Shown in pieces: positions 7,617 through 36,633 of a DNA stretch of 38,106 bases. The DNA lies in assembly GCA_022708505.1 (NCBI GenBank), contig JAKIYP010000016.1, positions 1-38,106 of the forward strand, read 5' to 3'. Source of the stretch: Bacteroidota bacterium (lineage in GTDB: Bacteria; Bacteroidota; Bacteroidia; Bacteroidales; Paludibacteraceae). Position 1 is the first letter of the stretch; each line of letters begins with the position of its first letter. The notes beneath the pieces were generated by a model. It saw only the letters and a program-made list of their open reading frames with translations. It was not told the DNA's origin and did not search any database. The translations under genes and the position numbers were made by a program.

Positions 7617-10600
7617 TTAATTGTTTTTATGCTTTAAATATTCGGTCGGACTCATGCCCGTTTCTTTTCTGAAAATGGTGCTGAAATATTTGGGATCACT
7701 AAATCCCAGATCGTATGCCACTTCAGATATATTCAGTTTTTTCTCTTGCAACATGCGACAGGCCACCTGAATCTTTACTTTACGTATCAATTCATTGGGA
7801 GATAAATTAACAAGCGATTTTAATTTTCGGTACAAAGTAGACTGGCTCATACTCAACTCGAAATACAAATCATTGGTGGTAAAATTCTTACGAAGCACAT
7901 TCTCTTCAATCAGACCGATGACTTTTTCCAGGAACAATTTATCTGTATCGTTATGGGTATATTTCGAAACATCCATCAATTCCTGATCTAAAGCAAAAGA
8001 CTGCGCCAATAGTTTACGGTTTTTTACCAGACTCCGGATATTGGCAATCAGGGCGGGCATCTCGAATGGTTTGGTAATATAGGAATCAGCTCCCGCCTCA
8101 AAGCCCTCGACTTTATGCTCCACATTCTGACGTGCTGATAACATCAAAACCGGGATATGAGAAAACTCAACCACCGATTTCATTTTTGCAGTTAGTTCTA
8201 TACCGTCCATTTCCGGCATAACCACATCAGTAACGACAATATCTATCTCATTTTCGTTCAGGATTTCCAGCGCTTCTATTCCATTGTTAGCCTGAAAAAC
8301 AATGTAATCACTTTCAAGCGCGTCAGATATCAATGCATTCAGCTCCTTATTATCTTCTACCAGCAACAATTGCATTTTTTCAGTCACTTCAAGAGCATCA
8401 ATATAGGATTTATTACCTTTGTCAGGTTGTTTCTCCTGACTTATAATCTCTTCTTCCGGCTCATATTCCTGATATATTTCTTTTGTATCATAATGATCTT
8501 TCTCTATCGGCAATAAAATACTGAATGTCGTACCTTTACCTTCAAATGAATCCACGGTTATGTTTCCTTTATGAAATTTTACCAAATCATGCGTTAATGA
8601 CAACCCAATGCCAATACTTTTTACTTTAAAATTACGAAAATTACCTTCGTAGAATCTCCTAAACAGGTTTTGTTTAACATCCTCGGGAATGCCATACCCT
8701 GTATCAGCAACAGAAACCGACAAGTTGCGATTTCCGGGCTCACCTGTTTCAGCAATGGTAACTTCAACAGAACCATTTTCTTTATTATACTTAAATGCGT
8801 TCGACAAGAGGTTGTACATAATCTTGTCCAGCTTATCACGGTCAATGTAACCATTGATTTGCTCACTCTCAGCATGAAACCGAAGTGCAATATTGTTTTG
8901 TACCGATAAGGGCGCAAAATGCACATCACACAATTCTCTGATAAACGATACAATCTCAATTTCTGACACTTTTAACCTGAGGTTGCCGGTTTCAACTTTT
9001 CTGAATTCTACGATTTGCTCCAATAACCTCACCAATCTGTCCATATTGGCTTTCATATTTTGCATAACACCGGTTTCCTCCGGATGTCGAACCTTTAAGC
9101 CGTCAAGGGCACAATTGAGGATGGTTATCGGCGTGAAGAATTCATGTGAGATATTCGTGAAGAATTTTAGCTTTGCCTGATGAACCTCTTCCGATTTTTC
9201 CCTTTCAATCTGCTCTATTGCCAGCATTTTTCTCAGGCGAACCCGATTAACCACAAAACGGGAAATCAGGTAAAATAAAATTAAAAAGATGACTGAATAA
9301 ACCAGGTATGCATAAATTGTATTCCAGGGAGCAGGCTTTATTTTGATTTTCAACTGAGCCGGATTGTCACACCAGACTCCGTGTCCGTTGGCTGATTTAA
9401 TTTTAAAGATATAAGTACCCGGAGCAAGATTATTGTAATTGACAAAACGTTTTTTTGAATCGACATAAACCCAGTCTTTATCAACTCCCTCTAACTGATA
9501 GGCATACTTTACAGCCGAGATGTTCTCAAACAAAAGAGACGAGTATTCTATCAGGATGTTTTTCTGGTTATGCGACAACGTTATTTGTTCTGCATAAGGA
9601 GTCTGTTTCAATGTTATCTTTGACTTTTCCTCCGGTGGCAAATTATCGATAAGTTCATTCGCTACCGAAATACCTGTAATGACAGGTTGCGGAGCAAATG
9701 ATTTTTCCTTGCTTTTTTCAGGGACAAAGGACACAAAACCATTGCTTCCACCGAAGAACAATTCATTGTTATTATTTTTAAATACGGCATTGGCATTAAA
9801 TGTATTAATTCTGATTCCTTCTTTGCCTGAAAAAATCCTGATTTTTTGATCGTGGGGCAGATCTTCATTGTAACTTACCAATCCGTTACCAGTTGCCAGC
9901 CAGATATTTCCCCAATGATCTTCTTCCATGGCGTAAATGGCATCGTCAGGAATCAGATTCATGTTATCGATGATATCAAACCGATCCGGATCAGCATGAT
10001 ACAAACTCAATCCTCCCCCTTTGGTTCCCGCCCAAATCCTGTTTTTATAGTCCTGGAGCAGGCATATTACTTCATTGTTGTTGAGGCGTTTGTTTTCAAA
10101 AGAGAATGTATCAATCTTTAAGTCCCCTTTATTCAAAACTATTTTAAACAATCCCAGATTCTGCGTTCCTACCCATATATTCTTGTCATTATCAATCAAT
10201 ACGGTATTGATAATCTGATTCGCGAATTGTTCCGCGATTTTCTTTTCGGTACGTACCTCATATTCATTTACTCCATTCCAGATTGCATGTACCAAACCTT
10301 TACTGGTTGCTATCCACAAGTGATTTTGCTCATCCTCAATAATCATCTTAATTCCCAGACTTTTGGGGTCGATACCTTCCAAATCAACTTTCCGAATCGA
10401 TACTACCTTTTGTTGTTGAAGTGTTACTGCATACAAACCATCATAACGTGTACCCAGCCATAACTCATTTTTTTTATGAGGTTTATGAAAGCTCAGAATA
10501 GCATTCGCCCTGCTTGAAATTTTATTCAGCACGGGATGTTGGTTGTATAAAATGAGCGAGTTATCAGATTTATTAAATAAACCCAACACAAAAGATTTTA

Positions 10601-11759
10601 TACCTAACCAGATAATATCGCCATCATCTTCGTAAATGCCGGTTACTGAGGACAACCAGTTTTCCTTATCAATAAGACCTGTCATGTTATATTGTTCGAA
10701 CTGAACCCGGTTTGAACTAAGCGCATTCATGCCAACACCATATATTGAATACCAGATGATTCCGGTCCGGTCGCGATAGAGTGAAAAAATCTCATCACTG
10801 GAAACTTTAATGGAGTTTGCTGCGTTTAGTTGCACCTCTTTGTCAAATTTGTACGGTTGTTGAATGATTTGCAAACCATTGGAAGTCGCTAACAAAATAT
10901 TTCCATTGTTGCGATCCTGATTGATACTGTACACTACCGGATAAAAGGTGCTTTTTTCATTCCGTTTCGGATAGAAAACGGTAAGTTTACTTTGTGAGGG
11001 TTGATGTGGATTTTCTATTCTGAAAACACCAAACCGGTCCCAGGTTGAAAGCCATATATTATTGGCTTCATCTTCGAAAAAAGAGTTCACAATCAGCAGT
11101 TTTTTATCCTGCAAATATGGATAATCCGCGAATAACCGGGTATTCAGGTTATACACATCATATCCGGTTTCCCAGGAACCAATCCACAGATAATTCTTTG
11201 AATCAATCAATAAACATCTGATTGTAACACTATTAAACTCCCGACCTTTAAGGTCCTTTCTTATCTGAATGAACTGCTTCAAATTCCGGTCATAATAAAA
11301 CAAACCGTTTGTAGTACCGAAATAGGGCGTATTATCATCTGCAATAACAATCGAGTTAATGCCACTACGGTCAAGCACTTCATGATTAAATCTGATTACG
11401 TCCCCTGTAAGTAAATCGATAAAATTTAATCCCATCAGTGTGCCTACCCATAAACCGTTTGTCTGGTCTTCGGCCAGACTCCTGATGGCATTATTACTAA
11501 AAAAAAGGGGATGCTGATAGTTGGACTTGTATTGCTTGAAAGTATATCCATCATATCTGCTCAAACCATTATTTGTACCAAACCACATAAATCCTTTGGA
11601 ATCCTGCAAAATACAATTTACTTCATTCGAAACCAGACCATCGGCCACACTGAGCGGACGCTGGTATTCATTTTGATAAATACCCGGCAATGCACGCAAC
11701 GGATGACTTAGTATCAGGAAGAATGCAAGCGTAAGGATAAATGATTTCATTAAATACAT
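7617..11759 (-). CDS. Hybrid two-component system regulator (HTCS)
   Basis: This is a one-protein signalling system that senses a glycan fragment in the periplasm and activates PUL transcription. The 1380 residues run as follows: signal peptide; beta-propeller sensor of repeated reg_prop units (W-x-G-T-x-x-G-L motifs, about 40-720); Y_Y_Y domain (about 725-785); transmembrane helix (about 813-836); histidine kinase with H-box ISHEFFTP (about 868-875) and ATPase motifs LLSNAFKYN and DTGYGIP; receiver domain (about 1123-1240) with phospho-Asp in VVTDVVMPEMDG; and a C-terminal AraC-type HTH (about 1286-1373). All key residues are present. A start three codons later, at MKSF, is equally plausible. 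It lies inside the operon, with its own promoter at 11790-11797 and two sulfatase genes directly downstream. It is the likely ligand of the paired repeats at 27237, 35208 and 36583. Confidence 0.96.
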   Translation of the reverse strand: MYLMKSFILTLAFFLILSHPLRALPGIYQNEYQRPLSVADGLVSNEVNCILQDSKGFMWFGTNNGLSRYDGYTFKQYKSNYQHPLFFSNNAIRSLAEDQTNGLWVGTLMGLNFIDLLTGDVIRFNHEVLDRSGINSIVIADDNTPYFGTTNGLFYYDRNLKQFIQIRKDLKGREFNSVTIRCLLIDSKNYLWIGSWETGYDVYNLNTRLFADYPYLQDKKLLIVNSFFEDEANNIWLSTWDRFGVFRIENPHQPSQSKLTVFYPKRNEKSTFYPVVYSINQDRNNGNILLATSNGLQIIQQPYKFDKEVQLNAANSIKVSSDEIFSLYRDRTGIIWYSIYGVGMNALSSNRVQFEQYNMTGLIDKENWLSSVTGIYEDDGDIIWLGIKSFVLGLFNKSDNSLILYNQHPVLNKISSRANAILSFHKPHKKNELWLGTRYDGLYAVTLQQQKVVSIRKVDLEGIDPKSLGIKMIIEDEQNHLWIATSKGLVHAIWNGVNEYEVRTEKKIAEQFANQIINTVLIDNDKNIWVGTQNLGLFKIVLNKGDLKIDTFSFENKRLNNNEVICLLQDYKNRIWAGTKGGGLSLYHADPDRFDIIDNMNLIPDDAIYAMEEDHWGNIWLATGNGLVSYNEDLPHDQKIRIFSGKEGIRINTFNANAVFKNNNNELFFGGSNGFVSFVPEKSKEKSFAPQPVITGISVANELIDNLPPEEKSKITLKQTPYAEQITLSHNQKNILIEYSSLLFENISAVKYAYQLEGVDKDWVYVDSKKRFVNYNNLAPGTYIFKIKSANGHGVWCDNPAQLKIKIKPAPWNTIYAYLVYSVIFLILFYLISRFVVNRVRLRKMLAIEQIEREKSEEVHQAKLKFFTNISHEFFTPITILNCALDGLKVRHPEETGVMQNMKANMDRLVRLLEQIVEFRKVETGNLRLKVSEIEIVSFIRELCDVHFAPLSVQNNIALRFHAESEQINGYIDRDKLDKIMYNLLSNAFKYNKENGSVEVTIAETGEPGNRNLSVSVADTGYGIPEDVKQNLFRRFYEGNFRNFKVKSIGIGLSLTHDLVKFHKGNITVDSFEGKGTTFSILLPIEKDHYDTKEIYQEYEPEEEIISQEKQPDKGNKSYIDALEVTEKMQLLLVEDNKELNALISDALESDYIVFQANNGIEALEILNENEIDIVVTDVVMPEMDGIELTAKMKSVVEFSHIPVLMLSARQNVEHKVEGFEAGADSYITKPFEMPALIANIRSLVKNRKLLAQSFALDQELMDVSKYTHNDTDKLFLEKVIGLIEENVLRKNFTTNDLYFELSMSQSTLYRKLKSLVNLSPNELIRKVKIQVACRMLQEKKLNISEVAYDLGFSDPKYFSTIFRKETGMSPTEYLKHKNN

Positions 11760-20653: not shown

Positions 20654-21442
20654 TTACCAACCCGGATTCTGTTTAAAATTCACCATGCGGTTTGCTTCAT
20701 CTTCGCCCACAGGGTACCAGTAATGCCGGCGTTGAAAAACACGCACTTCTTCCGTTACATCTAAGAGTTCATAGGTGAATACATTACCCGGATTAGGTTT
20801 TAAGGCGGTTGCATTGCTGGCTGTCACCTTTACACCCTTGATGGGATTCGGCACATTCAACACTTCTTCGGCAATCATCCACCTGCGTAAATCGAACCAG
20901 CGATGGTTTTCAAACAACAATTCCACGGCTCTTTCATTCCGGATCAACTCTCTTAATTTCAGCTTATCTCCTGCAATTTCTGCCCGCACATCAGGCATTC
21001 CCACCCTGTTTCGAACCATATTCACGGCGTCGACAGCCGAATAGGTATAACCCGCCGGTTTGACCGTCGGACCGTAAGCTTCATTCATGGCTTCCGCGTA
21101 GTCCAACCATACCTGTGTGGTTCTGATGTGAATGGTGTTGTAGTAATACAAGCCATATCCATTATCGTTACTCCTGTCAAGTTTAACACTTTCAGGCCAT
21201 TGCCATTTTTTTACCATATAACGGGTACGCACCATTTCGCTTGGAGCTACTGAAACATCTCTCCCTCCTTCCCATGTGCACACATAATTCGGAGAGTTAT
21301 CCGAGAAAGTTCCATATTGTTCACCCGGATACAGGATAAATGCATCAAATCTCGGGTCCCTGTTTGCATACGGATTAGCCGGATTAAAAGCCGGGTCATC
21401 ACTCACCCATCCTGTAGCAGTCAGGTTCGGCTTTGTAACCAT
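20654..21442 (-). CDS. SusD-family protein, C-terminal part (separated by a frameshift)
   Basis: These 262 codons hold the C-terminal RagB/SusD domain. The motifs are GWVSDDPAFNPANPYANRDPRF-like text near the start, VWLDYAEAMNEAYGP, and NERAVELLFENHRWFDLRRW, ending MVNFKQNPGW. There is no signal peptide and the apparent ATG lies within the overlapping upstream frame, so it is not an independent gene. Joining it to the upstream part by removing one A from the AAA at 21432-21434 (minus strand) gives the continuous reading NGYKPNLTATGWVSDDP, as expected for SusD. Whether the frameshift is real or a sequencing error cannot be told from the sequence. Confidence 0.85.
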   Translation of the reverse strand: MVTKPNLTATGWVSDDPAFNPANPYANRDPRFDAFILYPGEQYGTFSDNSPNYVCTWEGGRDVSVAPSEMVRTRYMVKKWQWPESVKLDRSNDNGYGLYYYNTIHIRTTQVWLDYAEAMNEAYGPTVKPAGYTYSAVDAVNMVRNRVGMPDVRAEIAGDKLKLRELIRNERAVELLFENHRWFDLRRWMIAEEVLNVPNPIKGVKVTASNATALKPNPGNVFTYELLDVTEEVRVFQRRHYWYPVGEDEANRMVNFKQNPGW

Positions 21443-22508
21443 TGATGGTCTCGAATTTATTCACTAAATTCTGGGAAACACTTACATTAGCCTGACCGTA
21501 ATTACCGGCTCTTTTTGACCAGTGTATATTCTGCCAGTGAATAGGTAAATCCGGTGTCGAGTTTCGGTTTTTACCCACAGAATTCAGGTACCACAAGGAT
21601 TCGTCACTATAATAATTAGGAAAATGATAAAAAATGTTTTTGTACTGATTACCCGGCATCATCTTGTGTTTCGGCGCCGTAACGTCAATATATTCGAGAC
21701 ACTCTTTGGCATATTGCGCTGCTTTTTTGGCTCTTTCCACATCGTAACCATTGTTTTCAATTTTATCAATTGGGTTACACATCAGCGGACTGGCTGCATA
21801 TAATTCGGCCATTGATTTCAGCGCGTAAGCAGCTGATTTGTTCGGACGACCGACTTCCTGACTCGGCCAGGCATCCGGCAACAGCGAAATAGCCAAATCA
21901 AGTTGGTCGATAATCCAGTCGGTCGACTGATGGTAAGTCAGGCGTTCCACGTCAAAATCGTCGTCACTGGAGAAAGCCTTGTCGAGTAAAGGCATACCTC
22001 CGACCCTGCGGATAATTTCAAAATAAAACCAGGCTCGAAAGAAATGCGCTTGACCAAGTAATTGCGTTCTTTGGGCTTCAGTCAGATTCGACATCAGGGG
22101 GGCTTTCTGAACAACCTTGTTAGCCACCCGCAATGCATAAAAAGCATTGGGGATAACGTTTCCTCTGGGTGATGCAACAAACTCTTCTCCCCAACCTACA
22201 TCAGGAGCCTGTTTGTTTGCCAACCACTGTCCTTTATTCGTGAATTTCGCCATGTTATTTGAATAAGGATTTGCACCTTCATCCGACATTTGCCCCATAT
22301 GAGCACGTTCCAGTCCATTTGCTCTCCAAAATGTGTAGTCGAGTACACAATTATAACATTGATCCAGATAACCCCTTACCGTGAAAAAGTTACTGAATAC
22401 TTCTTCTTCCGACAATCCCAAATCCGGTGATTTATCCAGGTATTCTTCACAGGACGAGAATGAAATCAGACTTATCAGTAAGATGATAATATATTTATAT
22501 TGTTTCAT
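21399..22508 (-). CDS. SusD-family lipoprotein, N-terminal part (first pair, frameshifted)
   Basis: This part has 369 codons. The start is set at the ATG at 22508 (MKQYKYIIILL), where the signal peptide and the lipobox ISFSSC (lipidated C20) begin. The frame extends to 22553 but that overlaps the SusC stop. SusD features are FSNFFTVRGYLDQCYN, QAHFFRAWFYFEIIRRVGGMPLLD and LPDAWPSQEVGRPNKSAAYALKS, which are the TPR-like helices. After NGYK the frame changes and ends in AEPDCYRMGE. The downstream 262-codon frame carries the rest. Together they would encode about 617 residues, a normal SusD length. It follows its SusC by 22 bases. Confidence 0.85.
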   Translation of the reverse strand: MKQYKYIIILLISLISFSSCEEYLDKSPDLGLSEEEVFSNFFTVRGYLDQCYNCVLDYTFWRANGLERAHMGQMSDEGANPYSNNMAKFTNKGQWLANKQAPDVGWGEEFVASPRGNVIPNAFYALRVANKVVQKAPLMSNLTEAQRTQLLGQAHFFRAWFYFEIIRRVGGMPLLDKAFSSDDDFDVERLTYHQSTDWIIDQLDLAISLLPDAWPSQEVGRPNKSAAYALKSMAELYAASPLMCNPIDKIENNGYDVERAKKAAQYAKECLEYIDVTAPKHKMMPGNQYKNIFYHFPNYYSDESLWYLNSVGKNRNSTPDLPIHWQNIHWSKRAGNYGQANVSVSQNLVNKFETINGYKAEPDCYRMGE

Positions 22509-22530
22509 ACGTATTATACTTTTAAATGAG

Positions 22531-25500
22531 TTAGAATGTGATTCTTGTTCCAATATTATATCGTCTCACCAAAGGATATAAAGCCGAAGAGTTTCCTTCG
22601 GGGTCCAGCTGCCGGTTAAAACTCGTTATGGTAAACAAGTTATTGGCATTCGCATAAATTTGTACATTTTTCATTCCGACCCTGTTAATCAGTTTTTTAT
22701 CAAGGTCATATGCCAGTTCCAGGTTTTTCAGTCGCAAATAAGATGCATTCTGAAAGCTATAAGAAGTTCCACTGGTCATGCTGTACCCCCCAAAATCACT
22801 GTGCAGAGAAGGTTTAACCGCGTTGGCTGCATTATCAGCAGTCCACCTGCCGGTCACATCCGGATTGGCAAAATAATTATAATCGTTACCCTCACTTAGA
22901 TCCCACAACATCAACGCATCAACATCTTTATACACATTCACCACGCCATATAACATCGCGTTTACCTGAAATGATTTATACCGGAAGCCAAACGTAGTGC
23001 CATAAGTGTTTTGGGGATAATTATTGTATAAAACCGGAATTTTATCCAACACATTATCAATGGTACCATCGGCATCATAATCCAGATACATAAAATCACC
23101 CGGTATCAGCTTGCTTTGTGTTGAAGAATTATTTGCTGTTGCATAGTTAAAAATATCATCCAACGACTGATAATAATCAGTAACCTGTAATTTATTGATA
23201 ACCCCGATAGGTTTACCTGCATATTTACGGTAATCAGGATAATCAGCGGCATCATTTCTGTAAATTACCCTGTTTTCATTGATGGCAAAATTTACTTTCA
23301 CCCAATAGCTCCAGTCTTTATTAATATTTTCGTTCCAACCTACTTCCATCTCTATTCCCCTGCTTTTGGTTTCACCAACGTTTCCATCGGGTTCTTTAAT
23401 CCCAAACCAGGCTGGTGTAGCCACGGTCATCAGGATACCTTCACGTCTCTCACTGTACATGTCCACCGTTGCAGTCAACTTATTGAAAAGCATCAAATCA
23501 ATTCCCAGATTTTGCTTGTAGGCTGTTTCCCATGTTGCATTTGGATTAGCAGCTTTATCTTCTGAATACAGTGGACCATAATTTGTTTTTTCCGTTTCAC
23601 CAAAGCTTACATTACCACCTGCATTTTTATATAACTGAATATAGGTATATGCCTCTGCGGACTTATCGTAACCAACAATACCAGAAGAATATCTTATTTT
23701 TAAATTATCCAATGATTCTCCGGCAATTTCTTTGATAAACGGTTCTTCTGAAATTCTCCATCCCAACGAATAGGATGGAAAAAACTGGTATCTTAATCCG
23801 CGGGCAAATTTTTGTGAACCGGTGTACGCCCCATTGAATTCCATTAAATACCTTTCTTTCCAGTTATAGGTAACACGGGTAACCCAGGCTTCGTCATTTT
23901 CTTTAAACTTCAAATTCGTAGCACTACTACCTGCCAGACCTTCAATTTCGTTGCGACTCATCAAGGCTAGAGCCGTAACATTGTGATTACCGAAGCTGCG
24001 ATCATAATTGAATGCCAGCTCATAATACAAACGTTTATCAAACCCTCCATCAAGAATTAAATCATAATTTGCTTTTGGTTTTTCTCCCTGAAATTCAGAA
24101 TCAACCCATCGTTCCTGCTTCACCATTACGTATCCTCCATCTGGCAGGGGTTGAGAATAATCATATTCCCGTGAATAACCAATGAAGTTCTTCTCTCCAA
24201 ACGGACCGCCATTGTCATAACGCATGAAATCATCCCTTGATCTGGTGGCCACGTTATAACCGAATTTTCCATTGAATTTTAATCCTTTGGTTATAAAACT
24301 CAGGTCCTGATTCAAGGTGGCATCAATAAAATTCTGATAGTATTTATACAAACGTTGTCCCTTGTCAAAAAGAATACGCAAATTCTGAGATGATTCTGCG
24401 CTTGGAGTTAATCCATAGCTACCATCTTCCCAGGTTATCGGGAACATATTTCGCGGTGCCGTATAAAGCATTCTGAAAAACTGCGGCTGACCAAAAGAGG
24501 TGTCACTTTCGTTATTATCATTGATCCGGTATCCGGTCTGACTGCGGTATCCTTGCCTACCTGAGAGATTTAAAGAAAGTACCGTTGATTTTGTCAGTTG
24601 AAAGTCAAAATTGCTTCGCCAGTTATACCGTTGATATTTGAAAGTGGGATCGAACAATTCATTTTTCTGTGTTTTGAAAATATCTCCATCATTGAGGTAA
24701 CCAATTGAGGAGAAGTAACGCATGAAATCGGTACCGCCACTGATATTAATATTATATTGTTGCTGATATCCCATATCATTTACCATTTCATCCCACCAAT
24801 CAATATTAGGGAAATAAGGATTGTACGGTCCCACATTACCAGTTGCAAAAGCGTTCTGCCAGGCATTAATCTTAGACTCCGGGATTAATTTGGAATATTG
24901 TAAATCGTTTGTTGCAGCTTCATTCCACATATTCATGGAAGTAACATAATCGGCATATTCCGGGCGGGTCAGTGGTTCCTTGAAACCAAAGTTAGCACTG
25001 AAAGAAATCTTAGGTTTCTGATTCACACCTCTTTTCGTGGTAACCAAGATTACACCATTCGCACCTTTCACACCATAAACTGCTGTTGCAGAGGCATCTT
25101 TCAGCACCGACAAAGATTCAATCTCATTGGCATCGATGTCGTTCATATCTCTTTCAATACCATCCACAAGCACAAGCGGTTGAGAAGAACGCCAGCTTCC
25201 TTTCGCCCTGATGATGATGTCAGCTTCATCTGCACCGGGTTTTGCATCATTCATGATGGAAACCACCCCAGGCATCATCCCCTGCAATGCTTCTGATACT
25301 GATGTTACATTCCCTGTCTTCAACAGCTCCTCACCTTTGGCAGCAGATATGGAACCCACTGAAGATACTTTTTTCTGAACACCATACCCTACCACAATTA
25401 CTTCATCGAGTACTTTTGTATCTTCCCGCATCAGCACCCTCGACAAATCGGTACTGCTTCGGAGTTGGATACTTTGCGGAGTATAACCGACATACGAAAA

Positions 25501-27201: not shown

Positions 27202-27209
27202 CAAAAGTA
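27202..27209 (-). promoter_or_regulatory. Promoter (-7 box) of the sulfatase-SusCD operon
   Basis: On the minus strand TACTTTTG matches TAnnTTTG exactly. The transcription start would be near 27195, 27 bases before the ATG. No good TTTG -33 box is present, which fits an activator-dependent promoter. Confidence 0.65.
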
Positions 27210-27236
27210 TTTATTTAGCATCTACATGGGGGTATA

Positions 27237-27271
27237 AAAATTATGCAAACAAGGTGTGAATTTTATGCAAG
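27237..27271 (-). promoter_or_regulatory. Candidate HTCS operator upstream of the sulfatase-SusCD operon
   Basis: Two direct repeats read on the minus strand as TTTGCATAATTTT (27237-27249) and CTTGCATAAAATT (27259-27271). They are 22 bp apart, or two helical turns. The nearer TTTGnATAA core lies 31 bp from the -7 box. This is the same arrangement as at 35208 and 36583. AraC-type activators bind such direct repeats just upstream of the polymerase. Confidence 0.6.
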
Positions 27272-27299
27272 ATTACATTAAATCCTACAATAAATGCTT

Positions 27300-28706
27300 T
27301 TATCGTACCGTTGGCATTTGAGCATTCATTCGCAACTTCCAGTTTTCCAGCTCTTTCTGTAACCGGACTTTAACTTTCGGATTTTCATCAATCAAATTTC
27401 GCTGTTCCCCTATATCATCTTTTAAATTATATAATTCATAGCTATCGGTCTCGATGATGTGAATTAATTTCCAGTCGCCATTGCGCACGGCACTGTAAGG
27501 TGTGGCACCTTCAGAATGATAATGCGGATAATGCCAGTATAAAGATGTTCTTTTGAGTTTATTTTTTCCGGATGTCAGTACTTTCCTCAAACTGATTCCA
27601 TCGATTTCTTTTGCCACTGACCGGTCAATCTTTACTCCGGAAATATCAGCCAGTGTTGGCAATAAATCTATTGACATGACAGGAGTGTCGCTTACTGTTC
27701 CTCCTGCCTGCTGATTGAGGTTTTTGATCATGAAAGGAACCCTTACGCCACCCTCATACATATGGCCTTTCCCTTTTCTAAGGGGAGCGTTATTGGTTAT
27801 CTTGCGTTCCCCCTTTCCGATCAACCCACCATTATCGGAAGTAAAAACAATAATCGTGTTGTCGTATAATCCAGTTTCTTTTAGCTTCTGAACGATTTTG
27901 CCTACTGCATCATCCACATGCTCCACCATCGCAGCGTAAACAGGATTGCGCTGCGGATTTGCGGGATCTATCAACGCTTCGTATTTGTCAATTTTGTCCT
28001 GCTTAGCCATCAATGGCGTATGGACATTGTAGAACCACAAATTCAGGAAGAAAGGTTTTGTTTGCTTTTCAATAAACCCACAAGCTTCCTCAGTAAGGCG
28101 CTCAGTCAGGTGTTCTCCTTTCGGACCGTCCTTTAATCTTGGGTTTCCATAAGGTGAGAAATATCCGTCCGGACCATCCGCATTTTTCGCACGGTTCAGA
28201 TTGGGTGCACCTTTGGACCATCCACCGATATTGATATCGAACCCATGATGCTCCGGCCAGTATTTTTCATCTTCCCCCTGATGAAATTTGCCGATATGGG
28301 CGGTTGTATAACCTGCCGATTTAAATATTTCAGCTATCGTCGTCTCCTCGTGAGGCAGGTACATGGTCCATTCCGGCACCTTTAACTTAGACTGTGGAAA
28401 CTTCCAGCCTTCAATCCAGTCGGTCAGGTGCAGTTTAGCCGGATATTTACCGGTCAGTATACTGGCCCGGGTCGGAGAAGAAACCGTGCAGGCAGCGTAT
28501 CCGTTGGTGAAGCGTACCGCATCCTTTGCAAATGCATCAATCTGAGGGGTCTGATAAAACTTACTTCCGTAAACACCCAAATCAGTCCAACCCATATCAT
28601 CAATCAGTATCAGGACAACATTGGGAGGAGTTGCTGTTTTAGCGGCAGCAGGCACGGTCAACAACGACAATAGCGGTAATGCAAGTTTGTGATTCATCAT
28701 GTTCAT
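27300..28706 (-). CDS. Ser-type sulfatase, arylsulfatase A-like
   Basis: This is a predicted periplasmic S1 sulfatase of 468 residues. The signal peptide ends near VPAAAKT. Metal ligands are in LIDDMGWTD and the formylglycine site is S76-S-P-T-R followed by ASILTG. IGKFHQGE, FYNVHTPL and TSDNGGL give the rest of the active site. The GVYGSKFYQTPQIDAFAKDAV text marks a different S1 subgroup from the paralog pair at 6230 and 25750. It lies 69 bases after the sulfatase at 28776-30398, with a strong hairpin between them, and is the last gene before the operator of the SusCD unit. The substrate is unknown. Confidence 0.92.
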   Translation of the reverse strand: MNMMNHKLALPLLSLLTVPAAAKTATPPNVVLILIDDMGWTDLGVYGSKFYQTPQIDAFAKDAVRFTNGYAACTVSSPTRASILTGKYPAKLHLTDWIEGWKFPQSKLKVPEWTMYLPHEETTIAEIFKSAGYTTAHIGKFHQGEDEKYWPEHHGFDINIGGWSKGAPNLNRAKNADGPDGYFSPYGNPRLKDGPKGEHLTERLTEEACGFIEKQTKPFFLNLWFYNVHTPLMAKQDKIDKYEALIDPANPQRNPVYAAMVEHVDDAVGKIVQKLKETGLYDNTIIVFTSDNGGLIGKGERKITNNAPLRKGKGHMYEGGVRVPFMIKNLNQQAGGTVSDTPVMSIDLLPTLADISGVKIDRSVAKEIDGISLRKVLTSGKNKLKRTSLYWHYPHYHSEGATPYSAVRNGDWKLIHIIETDSYELYNLKDDIGEQRNLIDENPKVKVRLQKELENWKLRMNAQMPTVR

Positions 28707-28723
28707 GGTATTTATTAATTAAA

Positions 28724-28761
28724 AAAATTCCACCCTGACAGCATCATCAGTGTGGAATTTT
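28724..28761 (-). terminator. Intercistronic hairpin/terminator between two sulfatase genes
   Basis: AAAATTCCAC at 28724-28733 pairs with GTGGAATTTT at 28752-28761. An inner CTGA/TCAG extends the stem after one mismatch. On the minus strand it is followed by seven T. It ends only 17 bases before the next ATG (28706), and there is no room for a new promoter. It may therefore be a partial terminator or an RNA-stability hairpin. Confidence 0.75.
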
Positions 28762-28775
28762 ATTATGACTGTATA

Positions 28776-30398
28776 TTATAATTTTATTTTTTTAGGTAAC
28801 GAAACCTGCTTACCGTTATCAACATAATACATAGGAAGCGGTTGTGTGGAATCAATCCATTTCCGGAGGTCTTTCAGCAAATCATTTCCAATCTTCAGGT
28901 TCGATTTCGTTACATTCCCTTCCAACAGATTCACTGTTTCTCCCATATCATCCGTCAGATTATACAATTCATGTGTATCATATTCATAACAATAACGGTA
29001 TTTATAACGTTTTCCATCAACCCGTTTGTTGATGACCGAAGCCGGGATTCCTCTTTCATCCATATACCCGGGGAAATGCCAGCAGATGGCATCCCTGTCA
29101 AGTTGTTTGGCTTTCCCGGCAAGTAATGGCACGATAGATTCCCCATCGAGTTTATGCTCTTTATGGGTATATTTTACTCCCGCAAAATCGAGAAATGTAG
29201 GCAGGAAATCAATTACATGAACCGGCTCTGCTGAAACTCCGCTATTTTTTATCAGGTTTGGATATCGCACCATCATCGGCACACGGATTCCTCCTTCATA
29301 AAGTGTACCTTTTGCCCATTTCAAAGGTGCATTTGAATGATTTCCACCATGTACTCCCCCATTGTCGGATAAAAATATAACCACTGTATTATCACGCATG
29401 GAATCTGATTGATCTCCGTCACCATTCGGGTCATCCAAGGCAGCCAATATCCGGCCTACCGTCTGATCCAGTTGTTCCGTCAACGCGGCATATTTAAAAT
29501 TCTCATGCCTGTTATCAAGCGTTGTTCGTTCCCTGTACTTGGCATACAAGTCATCGCGACTAACAATAGCCGAATGAATCGCGTGAAAAGCTACCCACAT
29601 GGAGAATGGCTTATTTTTATCCGCATTGGCGATTTCATTAATCACGACATCCCCAATTGCATCGGTAAAATGCTTCTTAGTCCCTTTTAGCGTGAGTGGA
29701 TCATTGCCATTTGCAAAAGGAAGCAGGTTTTTCCGTATATAATCTTCGGTATACGGAGCCGCAAATTGATTATAAAGCGGATTATCGAATATCCACTTCC
29801 CATCTTTCGTCTTGAAGGCGAAGTAATTCGAGGCTTCTTTCTTATCCTCCTTCACTTTTTTACTGCACTCGAAATTATGGGTAAATCCGCAGTCGTCTTC
29901 TTCATTGATTTTAAATCCATGTACTTTGCCAAAAATATAGGTATTATATCCTGCATCTCTCAATAAACGGGCATAATTCAATGTTCCGGGCTGCAGCGAT
30001 TCCTTTTCCTGAGCAGCTGGTACAATACGCGCTTCTTCTTGTTTGATACCGGCCTCTTTACCTTTCGCATACCGGTCCAGCCCCCAAACATTATACACAT
30101 GGGTTCTGTTGGCACACTGACCGGTTAACAATGCCGCCCGGGTCGGTGCACTGTTTTGCTGGGTATAGGCATTGGTAAAAACCATACTTTGTTTCGCCAG
30201 TTTATCGATGTTCGGTGTCTGGTGATTTTTGGAACCGTGTCCCAGGGTGGCTATCGGTGAAGATATGTCATTCCACCCCAAATCATCAGCAAAAAGTAAG
30301 ATGATGTTGGGCTGTTTTTCCTGAGCTGTCAGTACCGGCGTTAACAAACCGGCAGCCATTATCGCGAAAATTGATTTGTGTTTCATGATTTTCTGCAT
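28776..30398 (-). CDS. Ser-type sulfatase
   Basis: This is a predicted periplasmic S1 sulfatase of 540 residues. The signal peptide ends near TPVLTAQ. It has FADDLGWND at the metal site and S83-A-P-T-R followed by AALLTG at the formylglycine site. FGKVHGFKI and LSDNGGVHGGNHSNAPLKWAKGT form the later blocks. Compared with its neighbours it has an insert after the formylglycine loop (about 100-140, Lys/Glu-rich). It is probably specific for another sulfate position. The ATG lies 5 bases after the GH2 stop codon, so the two are tightly coupled. A start at the fifth codon (MKHKS) is possible. Confidence 0.92.
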   Translation of the reverse strand: MQKIMKHKSIFAIMAAGLLTPVLTAQEKQPNIILLFADDLGWNDISSPIATLGHGSKNHQTPNIDKLAKQSMVFTNAYTQQNSAPTRAALLTGQCANRTHVYNVWGLDRYAKGKEAGIKQEEARIVPAAQEKESLQPGTLNYARLLRDAGYNTYIFGKVHGFKINEEDDCGFTHNFECSKKVKEDKKEASNYFAFKTKDGKWIFDNPLYNQFAAPYTEDYIRKNLLPFANGNDPLTLKGTKKHFTDAIGDVVINEIANADKNKPFSMWVAFHAIHSAIVSRDDLYAKYRERTTLDNRHENFKYAALTEQLDQTVGRILAALDDPNGDGDQSDSMRDNTVVIFLSDNGGVHGGNHSNAPLKWAKGTLYEGGIRVPMMVRYPNLIKNSGVSAEPVHVIDFLPTFLDFAGVKYTHKEHKLDGESIVPLLAGKAKQLDRDAICWHFPGYMDERGIPASVINKRVDGKRYKYRYCYEYDTHELYNLTDDMGETVNLLEGNVTKSNLKIGNDLLKDLRKWIDSTQPLPMYYVDNGKQVSLPKKIKL

Positions 30399-30403
30399 TG
30401 ATA

Positions 30404-33574
<3,171 letters not shown>

Positions 33575-33582
33575 TTACAAAA

Positions 33583-35145
33583 TTAATCCCATTTATAGCC
33601 TTCTGGCACTTCACTTTTCAACCCAGGTCCAAATTCATAACCTTTATTTTCAAACCAGGGTTTTAACTTTTCAATTTTATTTTTCATCATTTCGAACGAT
33701 TGTTCATTTCCGGTGTACCACATTTGGTTTGCAATTATAAAAATACGTGGAAACAATCGTCGGTCAATCATATATTCCTGTACGACATAATCAGTCCACA
33801 AAGAACAACTCATTCCCAGCACAAGTGGATTAGAAGGATCTACCCTTGAGGGGTTGTGATTGAAAACATCCTGCATATCGAAAGTGCGGTTTTCTTTATA
33901 ACCTTTCCAGGGTGTCAGTGGAAAGTTCAAATAATTGTAATTATTAGTACCACAGAGGATTTCCCGACCCGATGACAAAGCTTTTTTAAGTGGCTGATCT
34001 TTCCGTCCGCGGTATTGCCACCAATGAATAACAGCATTTTCTGCAATTTCTATGTTTCCTTCTTTGGCAATCACATCATCCCAGAAAATTGCTTTTCTAC
34101 CTTTTGTTTTGAGATATGCTGCCATCTCATTTGAGAACCATATTTGAAGGTCATGACTATCTTTCAAACCCTGCTTGTGAATCACATGTTGGCAATCCGG
34201 ACATTGATCCCAGTTATCTTTCAGGGCCTCATCACCTCCTAAATGAATATATTCTGAAGGAAAGAGTTCACAAACTTCATCCAGAATGTCTTTCAAAAAG
34301 TTTATTGTTTCAGGCTTTCCGGCACAAAAGATCTGTGGTGTAAATCCAACTTCCGGGATGGTCACAGGTTTGTTAAAACAGGTATATTCAGGAAAAACCG
34401 ACAATGCAGCTTCGGCGTGCCCGGGCATGTCTATTTCAGGCACAACAGTGATGTATCGTTGTGATGCATATTCAATGATTTCCTTTATTTCTTCTTGTGT
34501 ATAATATCCTTGCTGTTCCGGACCGTTGGCAACTTTAGAACCTTCAATAGCTAAGGACGGATATTTTTTGATTTCGATTCGCCAACCCAAGCCTTCTGTC
34601 AGATGCCAATGAAACACGTTCATCTTGAGCATCGCCATCATGTCCAGGTATTTTTTGATGGTTGCTATGTTTTGATATTGCCTTCCCGAATCAAGCATAA
34701 ATGTCCGCCACCTGTATGCTGGTTGATCGTATATTTCACAATAAGGTAGCGCATTGGAGTTCTTTGTAAAAGTTTTAAGCTGAACTAAAGTTTGCAAGGC
34801 ATAAAAAAAACCTGCATCGGTAGAGGCATTAATCTGTAGCCCTTTACGTGAAATACTCAATACATAGGCTTCCTGGGGAATTTGAGGATTTTTTTTAAAT
34901 ACAACCGAAGCTTCTTCATTTTTCACATACTTAATCTTCTTGTTTATCATAATCTCACGTTCAAAAAACGAAAGGTAATTTTCTGACTCTGAACTAGCAA
35001 AAACACGTACCTTGGATGGAATTTTCCAATATCCTTTTGATGTGATTTTCAATTCAGAAACCGATGGAATGATTGAAACTTCCTGTGCATACAGAAACCA
35101 ACAGGTCAGCAAACTGAGCAAGAAATAAATACTTGTTCTTTTCAT
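33583..35145 (-). CDS. GH20 beta-N-acetylhexosaminidase
   Basis: This is a predicted exo-beta-N-acetylglucosaminidase/galactosaminidase using substrate-assisted catalysis. It has 520 residues with a signal peptide ending near WFLYAQ. The GH20b domain (about 22-135) is followed by the catalytic barrel (about 140-500). Signatures are RWRTFMLDSGRQY, MNVFHWHLTEGLGWRIE, VPEIDMPGHAEAAL and the catalytic D305-E306 pair in HLGGDEALKDNW. It is the first gene of its unit, 22 bases after the predicted transcription start and controlled by the operator at 35208-35241. GH2 follows after 53 bases. Confidence 0.95.
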   Translation of the reverse strand: MKRTSIYFLLSLLTCWFLYAQEVSIIPSVSELKITSKGYWKIPSKVRVFASSESENYLSFFEREIMINKKIKYVKNEEASVVFKKNPQIPQEAYVLSISRKGLQINASTDAGFFYALQTLVQLKTFTKNSNALPYCEIYDQPAYRWRTFMLDSGRQYQNIATIKKYLDMMAMLKMNVFHWHLTEGLGWRIEIKKYPSLAIEGSKVANGPEQQGYYTQEEIKEIIEYASQRYITVVPEIDMPGHAEAALSVFPEYTCFNKPVTIPEVGFTPQIFCAGKPETINFLKDILDEVCELFPSEYIHLGGDEALKDNWDQCPDCQHVIHKQGLKDSHDLQIWFSNEMAAYLKTKGRKAIFWDDVIAKEGNIEIAENAVIHWWQYRGRKDQPLKKALSSGREILCGTNNYNYLNFPLTPWKGYKENRTFDMQDVFNHNPSRVDPSNPLVLGMSCSLWTDYVVQEYMIDRRLFPRIFIIANQMWYTGNEQSFEMMKNKIEKLKPWFENKGYEFGPGLKSEVPEGYKWD

Positions 35146-35173
35146 TATAAATCTACGTCACTTTATTTAAATG

Positions 35174-35181
35174 CAAAAATA
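35174..35181 (-). promoter_or_regulatory. Promoter (-7 box) of the GH20-GH2-sulfatase operon
   Basis: TATTTTTG on the minus strand matches TAnnTTTG exactly and is identical to the box in front of the phosphoesterase gene. The start of transcription would be near 35167. No TTTG -33 element is found at the right distance. Confidence 0.65.
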
Positions 35182-35207
35182 ACGGATTATAATATAATCA
35201 ACAGGTA

Positions 35208-35241
35208 CATTTTATTCAAATAGGGAGACAAATTAATCAAA
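35208..35241 (-). promoter_or_regulatory. Candidate HTCS operator upstream of GH20
   Basis: Minus-strand direct repeats TTTGAATAAAATG (35208-35220) and TTTGATTAATTTG (35229-35241) are exactly 21 bp apart. The nearer core lies 30 bp from the -7 box. The nearer half-site is identical to that at 36583-36595, and the core TTTGnATAA is shared with 27241-27249. Confidence 0.65.
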
Positions 35242-35248
35242 TAAAAAA

Positions 35249-35290
35249 AACCGGAAAATCTCATTGTTAAATTTATGAGCAATTCCGGTT
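35249..35290 (-). terminator. Rho-independent terminator of the phosphoesterase gene
   Basis: AACCGGAA at 35249-35256 pairs with TTCCGGTT at 35283-35290. An inner CTCAT/ATGAG pair extends the stem. Eight T follow on the minus strand. This separates the phosphoesterase unit from the GH20 unit. Confidence 0.88.
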
Positions 35291-35311
35291 CAGTTTTCAT
35301 TAGCCATGTGT

Positions 35312-36481
35312 TTATTTTGACAGTTTCTTTTCAAATTCAGGTTTATCAAGTTCATTCAGCACCTGAATCTTTAAACCTTTACTATCTACATCAATCCTGA
35401 CTTTATTTTTATTCGCATTCACAAGTACTGGAAACTGGCAACCGCCGTAATTCATTTCATGATAATAATGCCGGTGTTGATGACCACACAGCATCAAATC
35501 GACACCTGCTTCGTTCAATACTGGAACATAAAGCTGATTCACCATCCAGGGACCATGCCAGTGGTCGGGCATGGGAGGCATGTGTACAAACACAATTCTG
35601 TTTTTGGCAGTTCTGAAAGCATCTGATTTTACAACATCTTTCAGCCACATCAACTGCTCTTCCCTAAACTCATCAAAAGCAGCAAGTCCGCCATATTCAA
35701 TATTACTGTCTGGTTTGTCTTCTCCTGAATCCAGCACAATCATAAAGGTATTTCCATGATGAATCGTGTAATAAGGCTGACCGGTTGAACTCGGGAAATA
35801 ATGCATATAATCAATGGCATGAAGTCCCCGTGTTTCATGGTTTCCTCTTACCATGTAAAAAGGCACTTCTGAAGCAAACAACTCTACTGATTTGTTCAGA
35901 AAACCAGTTGGAATTTTTTCGGGCGAGCGCATATCATGCACCATATCGCCATTATATACCACAAAATCAACCTTTTCAGTTTTGACATTTTTCAACAAAT
36001 TAGTCAACAATTCATTATTTTCATGTATATCATTGACCATCAAAAAAGAAAATGCTTTTTTATCAGTATCCAGGGTTCTAAAAGTCAAAGGAGTTGATTT
36101 GAATATTTTCGACGCGGCAATCTTTCCATACTGCGTTGACGATCCGGTTCCACCCAGCACTTCATGAGAATAAATTCTATACCGGTATGCTGTACCGGGT
36201 TGAAGGTTTTTTAAGCGGATGGTGTGATTTCGGGTAACAACCTTTTTCCCAATATGGGTTTGAAAATACTGTGGTCTTTCCACCCTGAAAAAATGCGTGG
36301 AATCATCCGGAGCAAGTTCGACCCACGACATGGCGTCACCGGAAGTTTGCCACACGATGGTAGCCTCATTTTCAGTTACATTCTGCAAATACGGTCCAGT
36401 CGTGATTTTAAAATCCGTTTGAGAAAAAGATTCAATCGTAATAAAAATAACGAAGTGTAATAGCAAAAAAAAGTGTTTCAT
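35312..36481 (-). CDS. Secreted calcineurin-like phosphoesterase with N-terminal FN3-like domain
   Basis: This is a predicted exported metallophosphoesterase, related to purple acid phosphatases. The start was set at the ATG at 36481, where a signal peptide begins (MKHFFLLLHFVIFITIESFSQ). This gives 389 residues; the frame extends upstream through the promoter. An FN3-like domain (about 25-125: GPYLQNVTENEATIVWQT) precedes the metallophos domain. The domain has NDIHE (about 147), NGDMVHD (about 176), RGNHET (about 211), VHMPPM and GHQHRHYY (about 335), which together complete the two-metal site. It forms a single-gene unit with its own promoter and terminator. It shares the paired operator with the glycan-degrading genes, which places it in the PUL regulon. 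The true substrate is unknown. Confidence 0.87.
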   Translation of the reverse strand: MKHFFLLLHFVIFITIESFSQTDFKITTGPYLQNVTENEATIVWQTSGDAMSWVELAPDDSTHFFRVERPQYFQTHIGKKVVTRNHTIRLKNLQPGTAYRYRIYSHEVLGGTGSSTQYGKIAASKIFKSTPLTFRTLDTDKKAFSFLMVNDIHENNELLTNLLKNVKTEKVDFVVYNGDMVHDMRSPEKIPTGFLNKSVELFASEVPFYMVRGNHETRGLHAIDYMHYFPSSTGQPYYTIHHGNTFMIVLDSGEDKPDSNIEYGGLAAFDEFREEQLMWLKDVVKSDAFRTAKNRIVFVHMPPMPDHWHGPWMVNQLYVPVLNEAGVDLMLCGHQHRHYYHEMNYGGCQFPVLVNANKNKVRIDVDSKGLKIQVLNELDKPEFEKKLSK

Positions 36482-36547
36482 TTGAAATTTAGATTTTATT
36501 TGTCTTAGTAATTCTGTTTTTACCGTACAGGCACTCTGTATGAATTG

Positions 36548-36555
36548 CAAAAATA
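36548..36555 (-). promoter_or_regulatory. Promoter (-7 box) of the phosphoesterase gene
   Basis: TATTTTTG on the minus strand matches TAnnTTTG exactly. The surrounding 12 bases (GTTATTTTTGCA) are identical or nearly so to those in front of GH20. Transcription would start near 36541, 60 bases before the ATG. Confidence 0.62.
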
Positions 36556-36582
36556 ACAAATTGAAATAAGAAACATCAGGCA

Positions 36583-36616
36583 CATTTTATTCAAATAGGG
36601 TAACAAATTAATCATT
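36583..36616 (-). promoter_or_regulatory. Candidate HTCS operator upstream of the phosphoesterase gene
   Basis: Minus-strand direct repeats TTTGAATAAAATG (36583-36595) and AATGATTAATTTG (36604-36616) are 21 bp apart. The nearer core is 31 bp from the -7 box. The block aligns with the GH20 upstream region over about 40 bases with few differences. Confidence 0.65.
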
Positions 36617-36633
36617 TCACAGGCTTATTAAGT

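Follow-up and report, generated by a model that had tools for sequence, protein, structure and literature searches.

Which regulator reads the promoters of a polysaccharide utilization locus (PUL), and through which DNA element would it do so? We addressed this question in a Bacteroidota bacterium of the family Paludibacteraceae (assembly GCA_022708505.1; 2.4-Mb draft genome, 75% complete; hereafter G000), whose contig JAKIYP010000016.1 was analysed over its entire 38,106 nucleotides (hereafter the window; G000:C50) and carries a PUL on the minus strand together with its own hybrid two-component system regulator (HTCS). A first-pass annotation, made from the sequence of the window alone, had proposed that three PUL promoters share a paired-repeat operator recognized by the resident HTCS. 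Our results suggest that these promoters, namely P1 before the sulfatase heading the SusC/SusD run, P2 before GH20 and P3 before a metallophosphoesterase (MPE), are very probably activated by one HTCS through a shared tandem operator. The resident HTCS is the likely ligand, because the operator clusters around this protein and its orthologues and is absent from the other HTCS loci examined.

Each of the three promoters contains two direct repeats followed by a TAnnTTTG sequence at the -7 position. At P1 (27231..27270, minus strand), the half-sites TTGCATAAAATTCACACC (27270-27253) and TTGCATAATTTTTATACC (27248-27231) lie 22 bp apart, both with the core TTGCATAA (at 27270 and 27248), and the -7 box TACTTTTG (27202..27209, minus strand, read from 27209) follows 31 bp after the proximal core. 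At P2 (35202..35240, minus strand), the half-sites TTGATTAATTTGTCTCCC (35240-35223; core TTGATTAA at 35240) and TTGAATAAAATGTACCTG (35219-35202; core TTGAATAA at 35219) are 21 bp apart, with the box TATTTTTG (35174..35181, minus strand, read from 35181) after 30 bp. The P3 operator (36577..36615, minus strand) combines ATGATTAATTTGTTACCC (36615-36598; core ATGATTAA at 36615) and TTGAATAAAATGTGCCTG (36594-36577; core TTGAATAA at 36594), also 21 bp apart, and the same box TATTTTTG (36548..36555, minus strand, read from 36555) lies 31 bp on. The first-pass annotation had given exactly these spacings (22, 21 and 21 bp) and a distance of 30-31 bp from the nearer core to TAnnTTTG; its core coordinates were about 4 bp too low, the proximal cores occupying 27241-27249, 35212-35220 and 36587-36595. 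Its core TTTG[A/C]ATAA is exact in the proximal copies and degenerate in the distal ones (CTTGCATAA, TTTGATTAA and AATGATTAA), and its 9-bp half-site is replaced here by one of about 18 bp, TTG[A/C]ATAAWWTKTRCC, whose proximal copy ends 20-21 bp before TAnnTTTG. The remark that none of the promoters has a good -33 TTTG holds only loosely, since a GTTG stands roughly 20 bp ahead of the -7 box in P2. The sites fall into two classes that differ at position 4 and in spacing: P1-type sites have TTGC at 22 bp and P2-type sites TTGA at 21 bp. Across ten sites compared, the half-sites were 21 or 22 bp apart and the TTTG of the -7 box lay 34 or 35 bp past core 2, six of the ten having come from patterns that already required a -7 box near that distance.

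Searching 48 genomes of the genus with the HTCS, we found matches at E 1e-200 or better in 23 of them. The closest relatives outside G000 belong to genomes G069 (99% identity), G006 (59%) and G001 (45%), followed by proteins at 35-36%. Both G069 and G006 carry the PUL, and alignment of the orthologous promoters, as the first-pass annotation had advised, revealed the TTGCATAA-22-TTGCATAA pair of P1 in both genomes, despite an HTCS in G006 that is only 59% identical. The P3 promoter is retained in G069. The operator therefore accompanies the orthologous PUL and the orthologous HTCS in G069 and G006, and more weakly the HTCS in G001. Around the -7 box of P1, an 11-of-12 repeat with a spacing of 22 bp (GATGCTAAATAA/GATGATAAATAA) was dropped, its first copy being absent in G069. 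GH20 and P2 (window 33583-35240) have no counterpart in the PUL of G069, which is 97% identical elsewhere and in which MPE stands directly before GH2; G006 contained no match to GH20 (40 kb read, E 1e-10) or to MPE (E 1e-5). The GH2 promoter of G006 (P5), spotted by eye first and then recovered by the P2-type profile described below, holds ATGAATAA-22-ACGAATAA with TATTTTTG 31 bp on, and is a mixed site, pairing an A-type with a C-type half-site at 22 bp. A search for SusC2 in 393 genomes of the order (E 1e-250) returned its own gene and seven relatives at 44-53% identity in four genomes.

Pattern searches placed most of the best matches in the same genomes. The pattern TGNWTAAN{14,15}TTGNATAA, with no -7 box required, matched 8 times in 4 genomes (reversed control, 6): three matches were P1 of G000, G069 and G006, one was the G006 GH2 promoter, three lay inside open reading frames (ORFs, on either strand), and the last, on G001:C4, ran across the end of an ORF that closely precedes another. 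A composite pattern, with the -7 box added and the spacing widened, gave 10 matches in the 48 genomes (177 Mb) against none for the reversed control and 0.4-1.1 expected, and 8 of the 10 fell in G000, G069 and G006, where the HTCS orthologues are closest. Three of these matches are the sites used to make the pattern, and three more (in G069, P1 and P3; in G006, P5) were already known; the new ones are P4 on G000:C133 and its orthologue on G006:C80. Only four composite matches occur in G000 (three in the PUL and one at an unlinked sulfatase operon), so the many unlinked matches that the first-pass annotation had named as evidence against the operator are absent. The composite matches in G002 and G024 were treated as background. 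The one in G002 lies between genes and may be genuine: it is on C190 (291-357, minus strand), pairs TGCATAA with TTGCATAA ahead of TAATTTTG, and faces the contig end in a genome without a close HTCS orthologue. A looser pattern gave 21 matches in 10 of the 48 genomes, 13 of them in G000 (5), G069 (5) and G006 (3), two in G001 (one inside a 996-aa ORF) and one each in six others; its reversed control matched 14 times over the 48 genomes and never in G000, G069, G006 or G001. Looser-pattern matches in G066, G031, G020, G024, G011 and on G001:C4 were treated as background.

We then compared three profiles, one from P2-type sites (10 half-sites from 5 sites), one from P1-type sites (6 half-sites from 3 sites) and a joint one, counting as a match a pair at 21 or 22 bp with TA(n2-3)TTTG 34 or 35 bp after core 2 and merging overlaps. 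The P2-type profile found nine sites in 274 strand-kb of resident loci (three from training), five in 184 strand-kb of unlinked clusters (two from training) and one in 113 strand-kb of the G001 locus; in the same stretches the P1-type profile found eight (three from training), five and three, so that 10 and 13 sites, respectively, lie outside the training sets. Each class recovered the other: a profile of P2, P3 and P4 sites only detected P1 in all three genomes together with seven more sites between genes, six of which have a gene start no more than 313 bp away, and the P1-only profile detected sites of the P2/P3/P4 type, P2 of the window among them, while missing that of the G006 GH2 operon. 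The G001 sites surround the 45% orthologue in a locus with different genes. In total the three profiles found 15, 16 and 16 sites in 571 strand-kb of test loci (training included), whereas each found none in 2,023 strand-kb of controls. These controls comprised 508 strand-kb in 15 stretches around 14 further HTCS-sized proteins encoded by G000, G069 and G006 (0 sites), 507 strand-kb of same-order loci (0 sites) and 1,008 strand-kb from 26 of the 80 loci of a contig search with the resident HTCS (0 sites), a search that returned no close orthologue (best identities 31-33%). The same-order set included eight weaker HTCS loci (L037-L044) and the loci of the G002 and G024 composite matches (L081 and L082), which pass none of the profiles. 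First-order Markov resamples (four per set) gave 0 or 1 site per set. None of nine sites checked lies inside an ORF of more than 150 aa, and for eight of them an ORF of that size begins 98-293 bp downstream in the correct direction. Within the control loci read, the operator is thus absent around other HTCSs, and this clustering around one HTCS clade supports the resident HTCS as the candidate ligand that the first-pass annotation had favoured.

The regulon is larger than the three units first proposed, and some of its members are unlinked. In addition to the linked P1, P2 and P3, P4 on G000:C133 precedes a sulfatase, GH2, a FAD-dependent oxidoreductase and three sulfatases, and its operator is retained at the orthologous sulfatase operon of a second species (G006:C80). 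A further unlinked site in G000 (C133:45553) precedes two genes, one for a protein of 555 aa and the other for a 1299-aa protein that contains fn3 and secretion-tail domains. Just beyond the PUL of G006, the operator occurs at P5 and before a gene for a putative beta-helix protein, a fold that we only guess at, with a weak Pectinesterase match below the cut-off. Its relative in G069 (47% identical) lies on another contig (C17) and has the operator as well, and no match was found in G000 or G001 (E 1e-20); the gene is thus matched in two of the four genomes searched, and in both it carries the operator, at different genomic places. No match to the HTCS AraC-type domain was found on G000:C133, G006:C80 or G069:C10 (E 1e-6). 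Because these three target contigs lack such a match, control in trans would be the simplest reading of the unlinked targets, and these targets lend further support to the resident HTCS as the probable ligand. A large sulfatase/GH2 cluster was observed both on G000:C133 (L079) and on G069:C10 (L127).

The resident regulator (7617..11759, minus strand; 1380 aa) unites a predicted periplasmic sensor (Reg_prop and Y_Y_Y) with HisKA, HATPase_c, Response_reg and AraC-type HTH domains in one protein, as expected of an HTCS; HisKA scored 26.7 bits, just below the 26.9 cut-off, with an ISHEF stretch visible. It also has the S/CHIP-DK interface, with SHIP at residue 1200 and with D and K positions assigned by visual inspection of the aligned HTH sequences. 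The first HTH reads SQ[SP]TLYRK in all four clade members, and its Q occurs in none of 19 comparison rows, three of which were misread (G000 C82, C75 and C111). The HTH is also matched, at E 1.5e-22, by a solved structure (12aw) whose molecule name is that of an HTCS protein.

Two direct half-sites about 21 bp apart in the promoters of the cognate PUL correspond to the architecture described for HTCS operators in Bacteroides thetaiotaomicron. For 16 of the 36 HTCSs of that species, the predicted motifs are without exception direct repeats whose tandem sites average 21 bp apart; they were interpreted as dimer sites two turns apart on one DNA face, and at least one HTCS regulon takes in a distant operon (PMC3878776, Ravcheev et al. 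2013). The present operator shares the direct repeat at about 21 bp and the possibility of a distant target; it differs in organism and in the -7 box distance measured here, and the comparison is one of architecture. The tandem direct repeats in PUL promoters are also reminiscent of SusR-like operators, but those repeats are 67 or 77 bp apart (PMC3878776), compared with 21-22 bp here, and the regulator here is an HTCS. According to another study, the HTCSs BT4124 and BT4663 show phosphorylation-dependent binding to susCD promoters in gel shifts, linked to the S/CHIP-DK interface (PMC11253607); the resident HTCS has the same interface, and binding, demonstrated for those proteins, is predicted here. 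We found no paper on this motif in the literature on HTCS operators, a search that did not use the motif letters and that left supplements outside its scope. The architecture is therefore already known; what is new is this particular operator, together with its predicted regulon and the -7 box distance measured here.

In Bacteroidota promoters, the -33 element is expected where the proximal half-site ends. In the mechanism that we infer, the two half-sites of about 18 bp, being two turns (21-22 bp) apart, would face the same side of the helix, and the bound activator would sit next to or over the -33 place and substitute for a weak -33 box (class II activation). The sensor may detect a glycan fragment in the periplasm, upon which the receiver domain would be phosphorylated and the AraC-type domains freed to pair on the direct repeat and recruit RNA polymerase. 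Activation rather than repression is suggested by the position near -33 and by HTCS biology. The HTCS may also activate its own gene, since that gene lies in the P1 gene run, and the operator would recruit unlinked sulfatase, GH2 and secreted-protein genes in trans.

Among the alternatives, the one that survives best is that two regulators divide the sites, the resident HTCS reading the P1 type and another AraC-type regulator encoded elsewhere reading the P2/P3/P4 type. The P2 type is indeed a tight class (five sites in 48 genomes at ≤3 mismatches, all in G000, G069 and G006), set off from P1 by position 4 and spacing, and G000 encodes seven other HTCS-sized AraC-type proteins among its AraC-type domain matches. 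However, each class recovers the other by profile, the stretches around the 14 other HTCS-sized proteins contain no such site, and intermediates exist, including P5 of G006 and A-type half-sites at 22 bp in G006, G000:C133 and G001. The difference between the types may reflect promoter tuning or a second regulator; with the intermediates favouring one regulator, we consider two regulators distinctly unlikely.

Chance is a still weaker explanation, according to which AT-rich promoters yield such repeats and P2 and P3 are alike only through copying. Taken singly, the repeats are weak against shuffled sequence: the best 16-bp self-match at offsets of 20-23 was equalled in 44 (P1), 15 (P2) and 565 (P3) of 1000 dinucleotide shuffles, and the exact 9-mer core, with 8 occurrences in the window against 2.46 expected (a count equalled by 1 of 100 shuffles), is not specific, with five of the eight copies lying away from P1-P3. 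Moreover, P2 and P3 both hold TTAATTTGTNNCCCTATTTGAATAAAATGT exactly (30 bp, two free positions), a sequence with no other copy in the genome at ≤3 mismatches, and an alignment of P2 with the G069 MPE promoter shows 80% identity across 76 bp. We therefore count P2 and P3 as related copies and not as independent instances. The case against chance rests on comparative data: the profiles separate the test loci from the controls (15, 16 and 16 sites against none), and the operator recurs at P4, at P5 and at the relocated beta-helix gene, so that chance appears highly improbable. That the repeats are part of a basal promoter or a global-regulator site, as their fixed distance to the -7 box might suggest, is barely credible, since such a site should be frequent, whereas the composite pattern has 10 matches in 177 Mb and none in the control HTCS loci.

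Several further points, besides the weakness of the single repeats and the difference between P1-type and P2-type sites that leaves two regulators possible, weigh against a single HTCS acting on all these promoters. G000, G069 and G006 are related, and common ancestry explains part of the co-occurrence of operator and HTCS. G002 and G024 have one composite match each without a close HTCS orthologue, and the looser pattern is noisier, with one match in 6 of the 44 further genomes and 14 in its reversed control. The profile thresholds (2, 2 and, for the joint profile, 4) were chosen after a first look at the scores, the first control set takes in 14 of the roughly 20 further HTCS-sized AraC-type proteins in G000, G069 and G006, and G000 is incomplete. 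The G069 orthologue of the P4 sulfatase (96% identical) has no operator directly in front, having lost it or never had it; on G069:C10 an operator-like site instead stands at the cluster head, beside a divergent TetR-type gene, and for one G069:C10 site the next ORF of more than 150 aa begins 3 kb on.

With the HTCS as the probable common activator, these data provide a specific candidate operator for the HTCS of this lineage. Unlinked clusters without an AraC-type regulator found on the same contig can now be provisionally assigned to it, as one predicted sulfated-glycan pathway. Combining cross-class profiles, a fixed -7 distance and other HTCS loci as controls may likewise allow HTCS targets to be assigned ahead of experiments.

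The edges of the operator-led blocks bear on how such a regulon might spread. In two cases, between-species homology ends within a base of the upstream edge of the operator. At P3, G000 and G069 match at 4 of 40 bases upstream of the operator and at 35 of 40 downstream, within flanking DNA of 97-99% identity; the MPE block itself (window 35247-36628) is 91.5% identical in DNA (97% in protein), with its upstream limit at the operator, and in G069 a 1.2-kb segment with a 389-aa endonuclease I gene lies just upstream of the operator. At P4, G000 and G006 match at 10 of 40 bases upstream and 39 of 40 downstream, and the P4 sulfatase is 90% identical between them, compared with about 60-74% for the PUL proteins. 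The operator with its promoter might thus be a portable regulatory end behind which genes are captured or beside which they are exchanged, the regulon spreading as cassettes, although we regard this as rather unlikely. The beta-helix gene with its operator at differing places and the P2-GH20 unit missing from the G069 PUL would fit such spread. The sharp edges, however, number just two, and boundaries of this kind could also be sharpened if selection acted on nothing but the operator. That the sharp edges are the trace expected from transfer or exchange of operator-led blocks is accordingly a tentative suggestion, with the odds against it.

In the order of transcription, the PUL, predicted to act on a sulfated glycan polymer, comprises MPE, GH20, GH2, two sulfatases, a sulfatase, SusC2, SusD2 (in two pieces), SusC1, SusD1, a SusE-like gene, a sulfatase, the HTCS and two further sulfatases, and a sodium:dicarboxylate symporter gene adjoins. 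All three units lie on the minus strand. The unit downstream of P3 (35312..36481) is MPE, with a likely ATG start at 36481 and an open frame of 389 aa; that downstream of P2 (27300..35145) holds GH20, GH2 and two sulfatases and is probably a single transcript. The run downstream of P1 (4291..27168), with a sulfatase, two SusC/SusD pairs, the SusE-like gene, a sulfatase, the HTCS and two sulfatases, has ORF gaps of ≤56 bp and would likewise form a single transcript. SusD2 (window 20654-22553) appears in G000 as two overlapping ORFs in different frames; in G006 it is one 619-aa ORF and in G069 both matched pieces share one frame, which points to a frameshift or an assembly error in the window.

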